A DNA stretch of 42,708 bases from Myxococcales bacterium (GTDB taxonomy: Bacteria; Myxococcota_A; UBA9160; SMWR01). This document shows positions 20,613 to 40,061 of this stretch, one piece after another. The stretch's first letter is position 1. Each line of letters starts with the position of its first letter. The DNA is taken from positions 1-42,708 of the forward strand of contig JABSQW010000026.1 in assembly GCA_013215605.1 (NCBI GenBank). The letters are read 5' to 3'. The position numbers and the translations under genes were made by a program. Under the pieces are notes generated by a model. That model made no database searches. It was not told the origin of the DNA and was given only the letters and a program-made list of their open reading frames with translations.

Positions 20613-21467
20613 ATGCGCATCAGCGAGCTCTTCGAACGGAATCAGCCGGTCTTCTCGTTCGAGTTCTTTCCGCCCAAGACCGACAAGGGCTTCAGGCTCC
20701 TCTACCGGACGATCGAAGAGCTCAAGCCTCTCGATCCCGGCTACGTCTCCGTCACCTGGGGTGCCGGCGGTTCCACGCGCCGCAAGACGGTCGACATCGT
20801 CATCCAGATCCAGAACGACATCGGCCTCACCGCGATGGCCCATCTCTCGTGCATCGGCTCGGGGCGCGACCAGCTGCGCGAGACCCTCGGCAAGCTCACC
20901 GAGGGCGGAATCGAGAACGTACTCGCGCTCGGCGGCGACCGACCCGAAGGCTACGAGCCGCCGCCCGACTCCTTTACCTACGCGAACGAGCTGGCTGCGT
21001 TCATCCGCGGTGACTTCGACTTCTCGGTAGGCGGCGCGTGCTACCCCGAGACCCATCCACTCGCGGAGAGCCCCGAAAAGGACCTCGCTCGGCTCGTCGA
21101 CAAGGTCAACGCCGGCGTCCACTTCCTCATCACGCAGCTGTTCTACGACAACGCCGACTTCTTCGCCTTCGAGGCGCGTGCGCGCGAAGCGGGCATCGAG
21201 GTCCCGATCGTTCCGGGCATCATGCCGATCATCAGCGCGGCCAACAATCGGCGCATCGCGAAGCTGTCGCAAGCCCGCATCCCCGAGGAGCTCGAGTCGC
21301 GACTGACAGAGGTGGAGCACGACGACGCTCTCACGATGGAGGTCGGCGTCGAGTGGGCCACGCTGCAATGTCGCGAACTCATCGAACGCGGCGTTTCCGG
21401 CATCCACTTCTACACGATGAACAAGAGCCCGGCGACGCGTCACGTGTTTCGGAACCTGCAGCAATGA
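20613..21467 (+). CDS. metF: Methylenetetrahydrofolate reductase
   Basis: This 284-residue FAD enzyme reduces 5,10-methylene-THF to 5-methyl-THF for methionine synthesis. The expected segments are all present: FSFEFFPPKTDKG at the N-terminus, YVSVTWGAGGSTR, MAHLSCIGS, LALGGDRP, GGACYPETHP, then ITQLFYDN and VPGIMPI for substrate and FAD contacts, with GIHFYTMNKS at the C-terminus. Length matches bacterial MetF. The start ATG 20613 is the only reasonable one, although its Shine-Dalgarno is weak. Its stop overlaps the purN start (ATGA), so the two folate-dependent genes are translationally coupled. No SAM riboswitch or MetJ-type repeat is visible in the 128-base upstream gap. Confidence 0.97.
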   Translation: MRISELFERNQPVFSFEFFPPKTDKGFRLLYRTIEELKPLDPGYVSVTWGAGGSTRRKTVDIVIQIQNDIGLTAMAHLSCIGSGRDQLRETLGKLTEGGIENVLALGGDRPEGYEPPPDSFTYANELAAFIRGDFDFSVGGACYPETHPLAESPEKDLARLVDKVNAGVHFLITQLFYDNADFFAFEARAREAGIEVPIVPGIMPIISAANNRRIAKLSQARIPEELESRLTEVEHDDALTMEVGVEWATLQCRELIERGVSGIHFYTMNKSPATRHVFRNLQQ

Positions 21468-22084
21468 GCGCACCCCTGCGACTCGCGGTCCTGCTGTCGG
21501 GCGAGGGCACGAGTCTCGAGAACCTCTTCGAACGCATCGAGAGCGGTGCACTCGAAGCTCGCGTCGAGGTGGTGATTGCCTCGAAGCGCAGCGCCGGCGG
21601 ACTCGCGCGCGCGGAGCGCCGCGGCGTCGACGCCTTTGCCGTACCGCGCCGCGAACACGACGAGGTCGAATCGTTCAACGACTCGATCCACGTGCTCCTC
21701 GACCGCTACGACATCGACCTCGTGCTCCTGCTCGGATTCCTGTCGATCTTCGAGACGCGGGGCAAGTTCGACGGGCGCACCATGAACGTGCACCCGGCGC
21801 TGATCCCGGGTTTTTCGGGGCAGGGCTACTACGGGCGCCGCCTGCACGAGGCCGTGATCGAAAGCGGGGTGAAAGTCACCGGTGCCACGGTCCACTTCGT
21901 CGACGCCGAGTACGACCACGGGCCGATCATCCTGCAGGAGAGCCTCCCGGTCCTCGACGACGACACCCCCGACGAGCTCTCCGCGCGCGTGCAGGCGCTG
22001 GAACGCGAGCTGGTGCCCGAGGCGATCCGACTCTTCGCCGAGGGGCGCCTGCGCCTCGAAGGCCGCCGCGTCCATCGGTCTTGA
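21464..22084 (+). CDS. purN: Phosphoribosylglycinamide formyltransferase (PurN family)
   Basis: This 206-residue enzyme transfers the formyl group of 10-formyl-THF to glycinamide ribonucleotide in purine synthesis. The phosphate loop is LLSGEGTSLENL near residue 10. The catalytic Asn-x-His is in TMNVHPALIPGFSG, and the catalytic Asp is in YDHGPIILQE, so all three key residues are present. The loop GEGTS replaces the more usual G(S/N)GTN or GSGSN, a small deviation. The start overlaps the metF stop by four bases. The stop codon lies inside the -35 hexamer of the imuA promoter, so transcription of the DNA-repair genes begins exactly at the end of this gene. Confidence 0.92.
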   Translation: MSAPLRLAVLLSGEGTSLENLFERIESGALEARVEVVIASKRSAGGLARAERRGVDAFAVPRREHDEVESFNDSIHVLLDRYDIDLVLLLGFLSIFETRGKFDGRTMNVHPALIPGFSGQGYYGRRLHEAVIESGVKVTGATVHFVDAEYDHGPIILQESLPVLDDDTPDELSARVQALERELVPEAIRLFAEGRLRLEGRRVHRS

Positions 22085-22110
22085 CAGAAAGGCGAAACTA
22101 AGGCGAATAT
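22081..22110 (+). promoter_or_regulatory. imuA promoter with two direct AGGCGAA repeats
   Basis: TTGACA (22081-22086) is a perfect -35 hexamer overlapping the purN stop. GAATAT (22105-22110) is 18 bases further and serves as -10. Between them lie AGGCGAA at 22090-22096 and AGGCGAA at 22101-22107, exactly 11 bases apart. The same arrangement occurs before dnaE2 (36796-36824). The expected start point falls at or next to the GTG of imuA, suggesting a leaderless transcript. Confidence 0.65.
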
Positions 22111-22116
22111 ACCGGG

Positions 22117-22908
22117 GTGTCCCCCTCCCCTCGCGTGACATCCACGTCTCGCACGCTGGCTCCCCATGCCGACGCTCCGCCGACGCCGCCGGAAGAGCGT
22201 TCGGTCGCTTCCCCGACCGCCATCGAGGCGCTGCTCGAAGAGCTCGGGCCACAGCTGCGGCTCGGCGGCGCTCCGGTCGAGTCCCTCCAGCGCTTCGCCA
22301 CCGGCATCGCGTCCATCGACGAGCTCACTGAGGGCGGGTTTCCGCGCGGTCGGCTCAGCGAGATCGCCGGTCCCGCCTCGTCGGGACGCACGTCCCTCGC
22401 CCTGGCCCTGCTCGCCGGCGCCACCGCCAGTGGCGAGATCGCGAGCCTCGTCGACCTCGCCGACGCCTTTGACCCCGCCTCGGCTGAAGCCGCGGGAGTT
22501 GCGCTCGAGCGGGTGCTGTGGGTGCGTCCTCCGGGCCTGAAAGAGGCCCTGACCTGCACGGAGCGACTCATCGATGCGTCGGGCTTCGCCCTCGTCCTCC
22601 TCGACCTCGCCACCGCGAAGGGCCTCGCCCGGAGCCCGGCTCCCGCGACGTGGCCCCGACTCACACGGGCCGCCTCCAGCACCGGCACTGGGCTCGTCGT
22701 GTTGTCCCACCAGCGGATCGCGGGATCCTACACCGAGCTGGCGATGGAGCTCGAACCCGCCAGGGCCCGTTTCTCCACGTCTCCCGCGCTTCTCGAAGGA
22801 CTCGAAACCGGGATCGCCCGGTTTCGCGGGGGATCGGCGGGCAAAGCCCACCTGCCCGCACGGCAGGCCTACGGCCTGCCTTCGTCGCGAATCAAGCATG
22901 CGGGCTAG
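22117..22908 (+). CDS. imuA: ImuA-like RecA-fold mutasome protein
   Basis: This 263-residue protein resembles ImuA, a RecA-related component of the ImuA-ImuB-DnaE2 translesion synthesis system. The core has GIASIDELTEGGFPRGRLSEI, typical of RecA-fold entry, and the P-loop-like GPASSGRTS at about 85-93, where the Walker A lysine is Arg. LVLLDLA stands where Walker B would be. Loss of the lysine suggests weak or no ATP hydrolysis. The N-terminal 35 residues are proline-rich and disordered-looking. GTG 22117 is used as start; it lies at the predicted transcription start and has no Shine-Dalgarno site. A GTG at 22135 is an alternative. The gene overlaps imuB by 11 bases. Confidence 0.85.
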   Translation: MSPSPRVTSTSRTLAPHADAPPTPPEERSVASPTAIEALLEELGPQLRLGGAPVESLQRFATGIASIDELTEGGFPRGRLSEIAGPASSGRTSLALALLAGATASGEIASLVDLADAFDPASAEAAGVALERVLWVRPPGLKEALTCTERLIDASGFALVLLDLATAKGLARSPAPATWPRLTRAASSTGTGLVVLSHQRIAGSYTELAMELEPARARFSTSPALLEGLETGIARFRGGSAGKAHLPARQAYGLPSSRIKHAG

Positions 22909-24661
22909 GCGTCCGGCGGCGCAGCGCACCCTCGCCCTCTCGATCGAGCCCTCGAACGACGAGGCCCCTCCGTCGCCTCCCGAACTCCCGTCCAAGCCTC
23001 CGCGACCGAAGAGCGAGCGCGGAGTGCGGGTCGCGTGTCTGCGCGTGCCCGACCTCCTCCTCGCGGCCGAGCTGCGCGCCAACCCGGAGCTTCTGGGAAG
23101 CGCGTTCGTGGTGGCGGCGGGAGATCACCCCCGCGCCGAGGTGGTGTCGATCTCACCGGAAGCGGATCGCCAGGGCGTACACCGGGGATCCTCCGTCGCC
23201 CAGGCACGCACGGTGTGCGGAACGCTTCGCGTCCGGGTGGCCTCCCCCGCCCTCGAACAGGCCACGCGCGACGCCCTGCTCGACGTCGCCCTCGCCTTCT
23301 CCCCTCGCGCCTGTCTCGCTCCTCGGAGCTCGGGCGCCTTCGGGAGCGAGGCCGCTGTCTTCCTCGACGCTTCCGGCGTCGACTCCCTCTTCCACTCCGA
23401 GGCTGGCTTCGCCGCGGCGCTCTCCGATCGTGCCGCCCGACTCGGACTCGCGGGAGACGTCAGCCTCGCCGCGTCCCAGGCAGCCGCCCTCGTCGTGGCG
23501 CGCCAGCTCGCCACGGGGCGTGCCCAGTCGTCGGCGCCCGGGTCGGCGCCCGGATGCGAGGTCCAGGTGCTCCCCGTCGGCGCGGACGCGAACTTCCTCG
23601 CGCCGCTGCCCATCGACGTCTTCGATCCGTCGGACAGTCTGGCCGAGGTGCTCACCCGCTTCGGCGTGCACCGGGTGCGCGACCTCCTCGCCCTGCCCCG
23701 GCGCTCGCTCGCAACACGGCTCGGCCCCGAGGCGATGCGCTTGATCGCCCTCGCCCGGGGCCGGGTGGAGGAGCCGCCCCTTCCGGTTCCCGAAGTGCTG
23801 AAGCTCACGGAGGCCATCGACCTCGACTATCCGGTCGAACGCCTCGAGCCGCTCGCCTTCGTCCTCCAGGGCCTGCTCTCGCGACTGTGCGAGCGCCTCG
23901 AAACGCGACGCCTGGCCTGCGGCGACCTCTACGTGAAGCTCACCACGGGAGGCGAGAGCGAGGGGCGGGACACGAGGCGTGTCGGGATCCCGGCGCCCAC
24001 CCTCGACCTCCGGGTTCTGATGCGCCTGCTCAGCCACGCCCTCGAGGCCCGACCTCCCGGAGGGCCGGTCACGGGGGCCAGCATCGAAACCGAGGGGCTG
24101 CCCGTCCACAGCGATCAGCTCGACCTGTTCCGCCCCGCCGGTCCCGCCCCGGCCGTCCTGGGCGCCACGCTCAGCGAGCTCGAATCCCTGTGTGGCAGTG
24201 GACGCGTCGGGACTCCCCAGGTGGCGGACGACCACCGCCCCGACGCCTATGCGATCGGCCCCTTTCGACCCGGGCGACCCGCGCACCCCAGTGCGCACAT
24301 GCCGTTCGAGGCCCCTTCGCCGGGGTTCGCCACCGGACCGCTGAATCCGCTTCAGACCGGGAGTGTGCGAGAGGCTCCACGCGCCCACGCTGGGCCCTCT
24401 CTGGCCATTCGCGCCCTGCGCCCTCCCGTACCCGCCCAGGTGCAGCTCCGCCACGGGCGTCCGGAACAGGTCCGCAGCGGCATCGCCAGCGGACGCGTGA
24501 TCCGGGTCGCCGGCCCCTGGCGCACCACGGGAGGCTGGTGGTCACGCGAGGGCCACTACGCCTACGACTGCTTCGATGTTCTCACCAGTGACGGAACGGT
24601 CTCGAGACTCCGCTACGACCACATCCAGAAGCGTTGGGACATCGACGCGATCTACGACTAA
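22898..24661 (+). CDS. imuB: ImuB, catalytically inactive Y-family polymerase homologue
   Basis: This 587-residue protein is the hub of the mutasome: family members do not polymerise DNA but bind the sliding clamp, ImuA and DnaE2. After a proline-rich start (1-42) comes the palm region RVACLRVPDLLLAAELRANPEL, aligned with ILHADMDAFYASIEQRD of DinB. The metal-binding aspartates are gone. The second site (LSLDEAFLD in DinB) is SEAAVFLDAS here, also without the Asp-Glu pair. QLDLF at 407-411 is a clear beta-clamp-binding motif. The C-terminal domain ends YDHIQKRWDIDAIYD, which looks like a normal ImuB end. The ATG at 22898 lies inside imuA, so translation is coupled. GC content is high even for this window. 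Confidence 0.92.
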   Translation: MRARRPAAQRTLALSIEPSNDEAPPSPPELPSKPPRPKSERGVRVACLRVPDLLLAAELRANPELLGSAFVVAAGDHPRAEVVSISPEADRQGVHRGSSVAQARTVCGTLRVRVASPALEQATRDALLDVALAFSPRACLAPRSSGAFGSEAAVFLDASGVDSLFHSEAGFAAALSDRAARLGLAGDVSLAASQAAALVVARQLATGRAQSSAPGSAPGCEVQVLPVGADANFLAPLPIDVFDPSDSLAEVLTRFGVHRVRDLLALPRRSLATRLGPEAMRLIALARGRVEEPPLPVPEVLKLTEAIDLDYPVERLEPLAFVLQGLLSRLCERLETRRLACGDLYVKLTTGGESEGRDTRRVGIPAPTLDLRVLMRLLSHALEARPPGGPVTGASIETEGLPVHSDQLDLFRPAGPAPAVLGATLSELESLCGSGRVGTPQVADDHRPDAYAIGPFRPGRPAHPSAHMPFEAPSPGFATGPLNPLQTGSVREAPRAHAGPSLAIRALRPPVPAQVQLRHGRPEQVRSGIASGRVIRVAGPWRTTGGWWSREGHYAYDCFDVLTSDGTVSRLRYDHIQKRWDIDAIYD

Positions 24662-24818: not shown

Positions 24819-26057
24819 TCATTCCTCGCGCTCGCCCCTCTTGATCTGGAGCGACAGCCCCGCTCGCTCCGGTTCGAGATTGCCGCGCAGGATCGCGCTC
24901 GATCCAAAACGGTCGCGCAGCTCGTCGAGTGCGCGGTTCAGCTTCGAGCGCCGCTCGACACCTCCCGGGCGATCGAACATCGAGAGCTGCTGCGCCGAGT
25001 GCGGTGCGCGCAGGATCCCGGTGACGCCGACCCCGAGCAATCGAATCGGCTCGGAGAGCGCGGCGCGATCGAGTAGCGCGAAGCCCGCGCGGGAGATCAC
25101 GTCACCGTCGTCGGTCGGCGTGTCGAGCGTGGTGCGACGCGTGAGCAGCGGGTAGCCGCGCGGACCCGGCGCGCGGCGGCGCGCGAGCTTGAGTTTCAAC
25201 ACGACCGTGCGCGCGCGCAGCTCGTCGTTGCGCAGACGCCGCGCCACCGATTCGGCGTGCGCGATGACCGTGCTCTCGAGCGTGCGCCGATCGGAGACAT
25301 CCTGCGAGAAGGTGTTCTCCTCGCTGTAGGATACGGGCTCGCGATACGGCTCGACATCGCTCACGTCTTCACCGCGCGCGAGATGCGCCACGCCGAGCCC
25401 CCACTCGCCGAGCGCCGCCTCGATGAGGCCGTCGTCGCTGCGAGCGACGTCCCCCACGGTCTCGAAGCCGGCCGCTGCTAGACGCGCCTGGGCCACGGGA
25501 CCCACGCCCCACAGCCGGCTCACGGGAAGCGGATCGAGAAACTCCCGAACCCGGTCGTCCAGAACCTCGATCAGGCCGTCGGGCTTCGCGACATCGCTCG
25601 CGATCTTCGCGACCATCTTCACCGGTGCGATCCCCACCGAAACCGCGAGCTGTGTGGTCTCGCGCACCTCGGCGCGCAGGCGATGGCCGAGTTCCGCCGC
25701 GGGGCCGAACAGGCGCTCGGTGCCAGATACGTCGAGGAAGGCCTCATCGAGGGAGAGGCCCTGCACCTTCGGCGTGAATCGGCGAAACACCTCGAAGATC
25801 GCCCGCGACTCGCGCGCGTAGCGCTTCATGTCGCCGCGTACGAAGATGCCATCCGGACAGAGCCGGCGGGCCTCGACGCTCGGCATCGCGGAGTGGACAC
25901 CGAAGCGGCGCGCCTCGTAGCTCGCCGCCGCGACGACGCCGCGATGGCCGTCGCCACCCACCATGACCGGCCGGCCGCGAAGCGCCGGACGGTCGCGTTG
26001 CTCGATGGACGCGTAGAAGGCATCCATGTCCGCATGCAGGATGACCCGTCGTCGCAC
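24819..26057 (-). CDS. dinB: DNA polymerase IV (Y-family translesion polymerase)
   Basis: This 412-residue error-prone polymerase extends DNA past lesions and mispaired ends. Catalytic residues are intact: ILHADMDAFYASIEQRD with two Asp, and LSLDEAFLDVSG with the Asp-Glu pair. The helix-hairpin-helix region SRLWGVGPVAQARL and the little-finger domain (SYSEENTFSQDV...) follow. QLSMF at about 357-361 is a clamp-binding motif, unusually 50 residues before the C-terminus rather than at it. The start is GTG at 26057. It faces imuAB convergently, and its leader lacks the AGGCGAA direct repeats seen before imuA and dnaE2, so it may be regulated differently. The divergent peptidase gene starts 94 bases away. 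Confidence 0.96.
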   Translation of the reverse strand: MRRRVILHADMDAFYASIEQRDRPALRGRPVMVGGDGHRGVVAAASYEARRFGVHSAMPSVEARRLCPDGIFVRGDMKRYARESRAIFEVFRRFTPKVQGLSLDEAFLDVSGTERLFGPAAELGHRLRAEVRETTQLAVSVGIAPVKMVAKIASDVAKPDGLIEVLDDRVREFLDPLPVSRLWGVGPVAQARLAAAGFETVGDVARSDDGLIEAALGEWGLGVAHLARGEDVSDVEPYREPVSYSEENTFSQDVSDRRTLESTVIAHAESVARRLRNDELRARTVVLKLKLARRRAPGPRGYPLLTRRTTLDTPTDDGDVISRAGFALLDRAALSEPIRLLGVGVTGILRAPHSAQQLSMFDRPGGVERRSKLNRALDELRDRFGSSAILRGNLEPERAGLSLQIKRGEREE

Positions 26058-36795: not shown

Positions 36796-36824
36796 TTGAC
36801 AGGAAGCGAAAACAAAGCGAAAAT
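36796..36824 (+). promoter_or_regulatory. dnaE2 promoter with two direct AAGCGAA repeats
   Basis: TTGACA at 36796-36801 is a perfect -35 hexamer. GAAAAT at 36819-36824 follows after 17 bases as -10. AAGCGAA occurs at 36804-36810 and again at 36815-36821, exactly 11 bases apart, filling the spacer. The element matches the imuA promoter in hexamer, repeat core, period and placement. An inverted repeat CGATC-CCC-GATCG (36825-36837) follows at the expected transcription start. Confidence 0.65.
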
Positions 36825-36866
36825 CGATCCCCGATCGCGAGTCCCCCAGCTCACCCCCCAGGAGAT

Positions 36867-39800
36867 GTGTCCCCCTCGGAAGCCGACTACATCGAGCTGC
36901 GCTGCCGCAGTGCGTTCTCGTTTCTCGACGCCTGCTCGAACCCGGAAGACCTGGCCGCGCGGGCCGCCGAACTCGACTACCCCGCCGTCGCCCTGGGAGA
37001 CCGGGACGGCTTCTACGGGAGTCCGCGCTTCCACCAGGCCGCGAAGAGTGCCGGCGTACACGCCATCGTGGGCGCTCAGCTGCGCGTGGGCGACTGCCTG
37101 CCCCCGTCCCGGCCACCGGGGGTCGGCGCCGCGCGCGCGCCCAGCATCGCCGCGGACGTCCCCAGCCTGCTCCTGCTCGTCGAGAGTCGCCAGGGCTACC
37201 GCGACCTCTCACGCCTCATCACGCGCGGCCACACGCGCGGTGCCAAGGGGGAGTGCCAGGTCACGTGGGACGAGGTCGAGGAGCACAGCGGCCACGTCAT
37301 CGCCCTGCTGCGCGGCAACGCCTCACTCGAACGCGTCCACCTCGACCGCGCCCTCGCCGCCTTGGGGAGCGACCGCGTGCGGGTCGACGTCTCGCGTCAT
37401 CTCGACCGCGAGGCCGAGACCGCCGCCCGTCGCAGCGCGCACCTCGCCGAGTCGCTCGGCGTCCCGGTGGTCGCGACGAACGACGTGCGCCACGCGCTGC
37501 CCGAGGGACGACGCCTGCTCGACGCGCTGACCTGCCTGCGCCACAAGACCAGCCTCGACCGCGCGGGCCGCAAGCTCGTGAAGAACGCCGAGCGCCACCT
37601 GCGACCGCGGCGTGAGATGATCGAGCGTTTCGCCGATCACCCGGAGTGGATCACGGCTACGCGCGCCGTCGCCGAGCGCTGCGCGTTCCACCTCGAAGAC
37701 CTCGGCTACCGCTTCCCCGAGTTCCCCGTACCCGCCGGCGAGACCCAGTCGACGGCACTGCGCCGCCTCTCCGAGCAGGGGGCCGGCGAGCGCTATGGGC
37801 GTCCCGTGCCGCCGAAGGCCCGCGCACAGATCGAGCACGAGCTCGCGATCATCGAGAAGCTCGATCTCGCGGGCTACTTCCTCATCGTCCACGACATCGC
37901 GCGCTTCGCGCGCGAGCAGGGCATGCTCGCCCAGGGTCGCGGCTCCGCGGCCAACAGCGCCGTGTGCTACGCGCTCGGCATCACCGCGGTCGATCCCGTC
38001 GCCATGGAGCTCTTGTTCGAGCGCTTCCTGTCGGAGGAGCGCGGCGAGTGGCCCGACATCGACATCGACCTCCCCTCCGGCGACCAGCGCGAGAGCGTCA
38101 TCCAGTACGTGTTCGAGAAGTACGGCCACTTCGGCGCTGCCATGACCGCCGTCGTGATCACCTACCGCACGCGCATGGCCGTGCGCGAGATGGGCAAGGT
38201 GCTGGGCCTCGGCACCGACGCCATCGACCGCCTCGCGAAGACCCTCTCGGGCCTCGAGCACCGCGACGATCTCGACGAGTTCGAGGCCACGCTGTCCCAC
38301 GCGGGCATCGACGCCAACGGCCCGCGCATCGCCGAGCTCTTCGATCTGGTCGAGCAGGTGCGTGGACTGCCGCGCCACCTGGGACAGCACAGCGGTGGCA
38401 TCGTCATCGCCGCCGGTCGGCTCGACGAGGTGGTGCCCATCGAGCCCGCCTCGATGGTCGACCGGCGCGTCGTGCAGTGGGACAAGGACGACTGCGCGGA
38501 CCTCGGCATCATCAAGATCGATCTGCTCGGCCTCGGCATGCTCGCCGCCATCGAGGACACCCTCGAGCTCGTGCGCGACGCCGAGGACATCGAGGTCGAC
38601 CTCGCCCACCTTCCCGCCGATGACCCGATCACCTACGAGATGATCCGCCGCGCCGATACCGTCGGCACGTTCCAGATCGAGAGCCGCGCGCAGATGGCCA
38701 CGTTGCCGCGCATGAAACCGGAGCGCTTCTACGACCTCGTCATCGAGGTCGCGATCATCCGCCCCGGCCCGATCACCGGCAAGATGGTGAATCCCTTTCT
38801 CGAACGGCGCGCGGGCCGCGAGCCCATCCGCTACCCGCACCCCTCTCTCGAACCCATCCTGAAGCGCACGCTCGGCGTGCCGCTCTTTCAAGAACAGCTG
38901 CTGCGCGTGGCGATGACCGCTGCGGGGTTCACGGGGGGCGAGGCCGAGGAGCTGCGCCGCGCGATGGGCTTCAAGCGCTCGGTCGAGCGCATGGACGACA
39001 TCGCGAAGCGCCTGCGCAACGGCATGAACGCGCGCGGCATCACGGGAGAGAACCAGGACGAGATCCTGCGCGGCATCACGTCGTTCGCGCTCTACGGTTT
39101 CCCGGAATCCCACGCGGCGTCGTTCGCGCTGATTGCCTATGCGTCCGCCTACTTGAAAGCCCACCACCCGGCCGCCTTCCTCGCGGGCCTCCTGAACGCC
39201 TACCCCATGGGCTTCTACAACCCCTCGACGCTCGTCAAGGACGCGCAGCGCCACGATGTCGAGGTGCGCGCGATCGACGTTGCGCACTCCGACTGGCGCT
39301 GCACCCTCGAGCCGCGCCTCCCCGAAGCCGGCGCGAACCACGCGCCGCAGCCCGCCGTGCGCCTCGGCCTGCGCTACGTGGCTGGCCTGCGCCAGGAGAC
39401 CGGCGAGCGACTCGAAGCTGAACGCGCGCGCGCTCCCTTCAGCGACGCCGCCGACCTCGCGAAGCGCGTCGCTCCAAGGCGCAGCGAGCTCGACACTCTC
39501 GCCGAGCTCGGCGCCCTCGCGTCGACCGACGTCGCCGCGCGCACGCGGCGTTCAGCGCTCTGGCAGGTGGCCGCCATCGAGCGTGACCCGAACTCGCTGT
39601 TCGCCGGCCAGAAGCCGTCCCCCGAGCCCTCCCCGCTTCCGGAGACCACGCCGCTCGAAGACACCCTCTCCGACTACCGCGCGAGCGGCATCACCGTGGG
39701 TCCCCCGCTCATGAGCTACCTGCGCCCGGAGCTCGACGCCCGAGGTGTGCTCACCGCGGCCCAGCTCCGCGAGGTTCCGAGCGGCCGCTTCGTGCGCACC

Positions 39801-40061
39801 GCAGGCCTCGCCATCGTACGCCAGCGCCCGGGCACCGCGAAGGGCTTCTGCTTCATCACCCTCGAGGACGAGACCGGCATGTCGAACGGCATCCTCACCC
39901 CCGCCTACTTCAGCCGCCTGCGCCGCGAGCTCCACTCCGGCGCCATCCTCGAGGTCGCGGGTCCGCTGCAGAACGTCGACGACGTGATCCACGTGCGCGT
40001 CAAGGAGCTGCGGGCGCTGGCGGGGCGCGGGGGATTGCCGCATTCGCACGATTACCACTGA
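36867..40061 (+). CDS. dnaE2: Error-prone DNA polymerase DnaE2
   Basis: This 1064-residue C-family polymerase performs damage-induced mutagenic synthesis with ImuA and ImuB. The N-terminal PHP domain begins YIELRCRSAFSFLDACSNPEDL and includes GDRDGFYGSPRFHQAA, typical of DnaE2. The polymerase core contains AQGRGSAANSAVCYALGIT and the catalytic acids in EWPDIDIDLPSGDQRE, then LRRAMGFKRS. A C-terminal OB domain reads GRFVRTAGLAIVRQRPGTAKG, and the end LPHSHDYH matches DnaE2 proteins. Length is usual for DnaE2 and shorter than replicative DnaE1. I chose GTG 36867, preceded by AGGAG; the longer ORF-track start runs through the divergent formate dehydrogenase. The gene is separated by 12.2 kb from imuB instead of forming the common imuA-imuB-dnaE2 operon. 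Confidence 0.97.
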   Translation: MSPSEADYIELRCRSAFSFLDACSNPEDLAARAAELDYPAVALGDRDGFYGSPRFHQAAKSAGVHAIVGAQLRVGDCLPPSRPPGVGAARAPSIAADVPSLLLLVESRQGYRDLSRLITRGHTRGAKGECQVTWDEVEEHSGHVIALLRGNASLERVHLDRALAALGSDRVRVDVSRHLDREAETAARRSAHLAESLGVPVVATNDVRHALPEGRRLLDALTCLRHKTSLDRAGRKLVKNAERHLRPRREMIERFADHPEWITATRAVAERCAFHLEDLGYRFPEFPVPAGETQSTALRRLSEQGAGERYGRPVPPKARAQIEHELAIIEKLDLAGYFLIVHDIARFAREQGMLAQGRGSAANSAVCYALGITAVDPVAMELLFERFLSEERGEWPDIDIDLPSGDQRESVIQYVFEKYGHFGAAMTAVVITYRTRMAVREMGKVLGLGTDAIDRLAKTLSGLEHRDDLDEFEATLSHAGIDANGPRIAELFDLVEQVRGLPRHLGQHSGGIVIAAGRLDEVVPIEPASMVDRRVVQWDKDDCADLGIIKIDLLGLGMLAAIEDTLELVRDAEDIEVDLAHLPADDPITYEMIRRADTVGTFQIESRAQMATLPRMKPERFYDLVIEVAIIRPGPITGKMVNPFLERRAGREPIRYPHPSLEPILKRTLGVPLFQEQLLRVAMTAAGFTGGEAEELRRAMGFKRSVERMDDIAKRLRNGMNARGITGENQDEILRGITSFALYGFPESHAASFALIAYASAYLKAHHPAAFLAGLLNAYPMGFYNPSTLVKDAQRHDVEVRAIDVAHSDWRCTLEPRLPEAGANHAPQPAVRLGLRYVAGLRQETGERLEAERARAPFSDAADLAKRVAPRRSELDTLAELGALASTDVAARTRRSALWQVAAIERDPNSLFAGQKPSPEPSPLPETTPLEDTLSDYRASGITVGPPLMSYLRPELDARGVLTAAQLREVPSGRFVRTAGLAIVRQRPGTAKGFCFITLEDETGMSNGILTPAYFSRLRRELHSGAILEVAGPLQNVDDVIHVRVKELRALAGRGGLPHSHDYH

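Follow-up and report, generated by a model that had tools for sequence, protein, structure and literature searches.

In Caulobacter and other alphaproteobacteria, LexA binds a direct repeat, GTTC-N7-GTTC (PMC9578287 Table 1, PMC8565304). The LexA box of Acidobacterium capsulatum (Mazon et al. 2006) is cited among the direct-repeat cases as well (PMC7739468), and the title of Mazon et al. has lexA acquired laterally from Alphaproteobacteria (cited in PMC7739468, PMC1978210). Comparative genomics found another direct repeat, TTACACATATTTTWTACATA, for the LexA of Balneolaeota (PMC7739468). In Bacillus and the Gram-positive bacteria the box is CGAAC-N4-GTTCG (PMC9578287). Reported LexA motifs also include TTAC-N3-GTAA and GGTT-N10-AACC.

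Here we analyzed a repeat, TTCG-N7-TTCG, found in two promoters of the window, meaning the whole stretch of 42,708 nucleotides. Like the alphaproteobacterial box it is a direct repeat with an 11-bp period placed within promoters, while its half-site is TTCG[C/T] and not GTTC. The first-pass annotation had drawn the same likeness and the same distinction, and both the N7 spacing and the TTCG core were confirmed. The alphaproteobacterial box itself was absent from the lexA locus of this genome and from 30 Acidobacteriota lexA promoters. By its title and the way it is cited, the A. capsulatum case is similar in being a direct repeat and in coming from the Acidobacteriota, where the present repeat also occurs (see below). 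As here, the regulon of the Balneolaeota, an understudied phylum, contains translesion polymerases and a radical SAM protein, but the half-site differs and, unlike here, recA is regulated (PMC7739468). The Bacillus box has TTCG and CGAA at its ends as ours does, but it is a palindrome rather than a direct repeat. Boxes of the Myxococcus type are found in the same phylum and at LexA-linked promoters; they differ in having GTTCAG and a LexA with the helix STNGVNDHLKAL. A literal literature search for spellings of TTCG-N7-TTCG found none, a provisional result above all for the Acidobacteriota. The earlier suggestion of an undescribed operator is thus best divided: the half-site and its spread over several phyla were, provisionally, not found described, but a LexA direct repeat with an 11-bp period was already known.

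The two promoters span 22081-22110 (imuA) and 36796-36825 (dnaE2). In each a TTGACA, perfect as the first-pass annotation had read it, precedes two CGAA half-sites repeated with an 11-bp period (Table 1). The direct copies also lie where they had been placed, AGGCGAA at 22090 and 22101 and AAGCGAA at 36804 and 36815. One correction concerns the spacing: 3 bp lie between TTGACA and the box in the imuA promoter, and 2 bp in the dnaE2 promoter. On the minus strand the two boxes share the form TTCGCYTTnnTTTCGCY. No consensus sigma-70 promoter was scored at imuA, in agreement with the weak -10 noted before. The imuA -35 element overlaps the end of the preceding gene, as the TGA stop codon (22082-22084) of the purN ORF (21038-22084) lies inside TTGACA. 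The dnaE2 gene starts with GTG and has an AGGAG ribosome-binding site at 36860. A polymerase IV gene beside imuAB on the opposite strand (24819-26057) has no box, the loose repeat being present on the whole contig only at the imuA and dnaE2 sites.

Table 1. Coordinates of promoter elements, putative operators and genes in the window
Feature	Position	Strand	Remarks
-35 element TTGACA of imuA promoter	22081..22086	+	read from sequence
Putative LexA operator of imuAB	22090..22107	-	AGGCGAA-N4-AGGCGAA on +, TTCGCCTTAGTTTCGCC on -
imuA, RecA-like	22117..22908	+	NF033429 ImuA match, below cut-off
imuB ORF, Y-family-like, IMS domains	22574..24661	+	true start probably near the imuA stop at 22908, because the IMS domain begins near 23063
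-35 element TTGACA of dnaE2 promoter	36796..36801	+	read from sequence
Putative LexA operator of dnaE2	36804..36821	-	AAGCGAA-N4-AAGCGAA on +, TTCGCTTTGTTTTCGCT on -
dnaE2, error-prone DNA polymerase	36867..40061	+	NF004225, 1252.7 bits, cut-off 939

Perfect matches to the promoter repeat were limited to these two sites in the 42.7-kb window, and TTCGYYTTNNTTTCGCY with up to two mismatches returned the same two and no others. Shuffled windows gave a mean of 0.32 such matches. Two matches were reached in 3 of 100 shuffles, a result that leaves some room for chance similarity of the two promoters. Taken by themselves, the window statistics thus make the pair weakly significant and only suggestive; what makes the support for it decisive is the genome-wide scan and the relatives.

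The genome encodes a single LexA (C344, L001:1498-2100). The first-pass annotation had remarked that the regulator was not visible in the window, rightly so because lexA lies on another contig. The protein is a canonical LexA: it matches TIGR00498 at 179 bits (cut-off 111) and has both the N-terminal winged-helix DNA-binding domain (PF01726, 67 bits) and the S24 peptidase domain (PF00717, 97 bits). Alignment with E. coli LexA places the cleavage site at Ala86-Gly87 and the catalytic dyad at Ser121/Lys159. Its own promoter, TTGACTTTCGCTTCTGTTTCGTTAAAAAT, carries the direct repeat, which adjoins the -35 element without a gap 35-55 bp before the start codon, in the orientation opposite to that of the imuA and dnaE2 boxes. 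A second, inverted box follows just downstream (TTCGTTATTTCTTCGCC on the minus strand).

We therefore read the repeat as the predicted SOS box of the LexA that this genome encodes, through which lexA, imuA(-imuB), dnaE2 and a radical SAM gene of the PA0069 family would be repressed, and we put the probability of this reading at roughly 0.9. LexA binding, repression and induction by damage are inferred here from sequence. A LexA dimer would sit on two direct TTCG half-sites one helical turn apart. With the operator in the spacer between -35 and -10, bound LexA would block RNA polymerase; this repressor-site mechanism is proposed from the position of the box and by analogy with alphaproteobacterial LexA. 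Upon DNA damage, RecA filaments would promote self-cleavage of LexA and the mutasome genes would be turned on together. The output of LexA indicated for this group is induced mutagenesis through ImuA-ImuB-DnaE2, not recombination through recA. The earlier proposal of an SOS-type operator is thereby largely supported, given the box at lexA, its genome specificity and its conservation, although the kind of operator is not itself undescribed.

To measure specificity we used a strict pattern, WTTCGYYTYNNTTTCGYY, with the same pattern read backwards as the control. In the 6.7-Mb genome the strict pattern has exactly three matches, at imuA, dnaE2 and lexA, and the control has none; random scatter, which would have spoken against the operator, is not what the genome contains. 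Across 61 genomes of the order there were 87 matches compared to 10 for the control. Loose patterns alone are not specific. With two mismatches, ARGCGAA-N4-ARGCGAA gave 152 matches in the genome versus 164 in the control, and TTCGY-N6-TTCGY gave 130 versus 31. Regulon calls were therefore based on strict matches together with conservation.

Conservation was examined in 30 relatives of the same order per gene, our own genome included, by searching for TTCG-N7-TTCG within 300 bp upstream. The repeat was found before lexA in 29 of 30, before imuA in 28 and before dnaE2 in 27, and so is kept in relatives at both promoters of the window as had been claimed. Some of the exceptions are one-base variants (TTCGCCTTTTGTTCTC). 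Other spacings from N2 to N15 upstream of the three genes gave 0-7 matches, N7 alone standing out, and within gene bodies, the control, the N7 spacing was found in 0 of 30. Such fixed-spacing conservation, seen across some 60 genomes as well as other phyla, refutes chance similarity, to which we give almost no weight. Chance had been called unlikely from the outset; that judgment holds on conservation, with the window statistics adding only a suggestion.

While imuA and dnaE2 have the box on the minus strand, lexA has it on the plus strand, and a TTGAC element is nearly always beside it. Among minus-strand sites at imuA, 25 of 29 have a hexamer matching TTGACA in at least five of six positions and starting 11-12 bp before the first CGAA; over nearly all imuA sites of the relatives, a TTGACA-like hexamer begins 11-13 bp ahead of the first half-site core. 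Of the plus-strand sites before lexA, 20 out of 27 have TTGACT/C immediately next to the first half-site. This nearly constant company of the -35 element is what a constitutive or sigma-factor promoter feature, an extended spacer motif and no operator, would have in its favor. We consider that very improbable, as the only three strict sites in 6.7 Mb are all at SOS-type genes, and the repeat occurs in both orientations to transcription, an arrangement incompatible with a sigma contact. The inverted second copy downstream is also present in many of the relatives' lexA promoters.

Those relatives of this LexA that have a name come from MAGs of uncultured Myxococcota or 'Deltaproteobacteria'. The GTDB class indicated by the SMWR01 record is UBA9160. 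LexA relatives at a greater distance (45-60%) are found in the Acidobacteriota, Gemmatimonadota and Krumholzibacteriota, and 51 of 55 loci from these three phyla have the same repeat upstream of lexA. In these promoters it takes up the 17-bp spacer exactly, e.g. TTGACT-TTCGCCTGACTTTCGCC-TACCTT. In one Acidobacteriota family all 30 lexA promoters have TTCG-N7-TTCG, while in the Gemmatimonadota the lexA operator is spelled TTCGG. The error-prone polymerase genes of these phyla have the repeat in 12 of 22 cases versus 1 of 8 DnaE1-like controls.

The situation differs in other Myxococcota (L251-L267), in which TTCG-N7-TTCG was not found at lexA, the lexA promoters contain GTTCAG, and helix 3 of LexA is STNGVNDHLKAL instead of the SSVATVHKHV of the present class. 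Within the present class there are some Myxococcota whose annotated lexA start has no clear box nearby (L268). With GTTCAG and another helix in other members of the phylum, the present class is more like the Acidobacteriota in its LexA and its box than like those other Myxococcota. Lateral transfer, retention and the placement of the phylum are all possible origins of the likeness. Since the lexA promoter and helix 3 both differ among its members, LexA specificity appears from these sequences to have changed inside the Myxococcota, which adds one more example to the turnover already known for LexA binding motifs.

Within helix 3, position 44 aligns with E. coli Glu45, which is among the DNA-contacting residues of E. 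coli LexA (PMC3091678). Residue 44 is Glu at all 29 loci with a first half-site TTCGG and is not Glu at any of the 61 others, nearly all of which have Lys. Lys44 thus pairs with TTCG[C/T] and Glu44 with TTCGG. A contact of Lys with G, and of Glu with C on the opposite strand, is chemically feasible and would be a plausible basis for the pairing. On a quick tree the Lys/Glu and C/G states require two changes, but forcing a single clade was not rejected (p-AU 0.763). As a single change fits the tree, we make no claim of repeated co-evolution, and the correlation may reflect one historical change. Residue 44 is a possible specificity residue, suggesting a one-residue switch of LexA specificity. 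With moderate confidence, we favor TTCG-N7-TTCG as an unrecognised class of LexA operator present in at least four phyla (one Myxococcota class, Acidobacteriota, Gemmatimonadota and Krumholzibacteriota), in which residue 44, Lys or Glu, would set the fifth base of the half-site, a pyrimidine (mostly C) or G, and the core regulon in this Myxococcota class would be the mutasome without recA. The motif can be used to search for SOS regulons in phyla abundant in soil and sediment and almost uncharacterised for their control of DNA damage responses.

The further targets proposed earlier fared unevenly, as lexA carries the box but recA, a rejected candidate, had the repeat in 0 of 27 upstream regions of relatives (L271-L297). 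Control of recA by LexA is usual in many groups, though not universal. A recA gene without a box is also what might be expected if another damage regulator, a WYL/PafBC-like activator or a second repressor, bound the repeat and lexA were merely a target. LexA-independent regulation is known elsewhere, from what is reported of a WYL-domain activator in mycobacteria (PMC10693628) and, going by a title, of induction in Myxococcus xanthus (cited in PMC8565304). We regard such a regulator as improbable here: the site fills the -35/-10 spacer, the position of a repressor; in several phyla the lexA promoter itself has the repeat as its element; the half-site base varies together with LexA residue 44; and the Myxococcota with a different helix have a different lexA box.

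For the predicted LexA regulon, strict sites in relatives pointed to the PA0069-family radical SAM gene (NF033668, 461 bits) as a recurrent fourth target. Its box is close to the start codon in 10 genomes, our own included, and in several it is 1-2 bp before the ATG. In our genome the box (G000:C99:6963-6978; locus L245, about 1500) is 11 bp before a GTG start and fits the loose pattern but not the strict one.

A box also precedes DUF222/HNH-like ORFs in a few relatives (L320, L333, L334 and L350). These four loci cluster by BLASTP and were named by eye, Pfam giving no hit for the one tested. Another site, G000:C556:22035-22050 (locus L356, minus strand), has promoter and box in perfect form, ATTGACTTTCGTTTTTCTTTCGCGTATGCTG, but lacks a convincing ORF directly downstream. 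It is possible that a small RNA or small peptide is under LexA control at this site.
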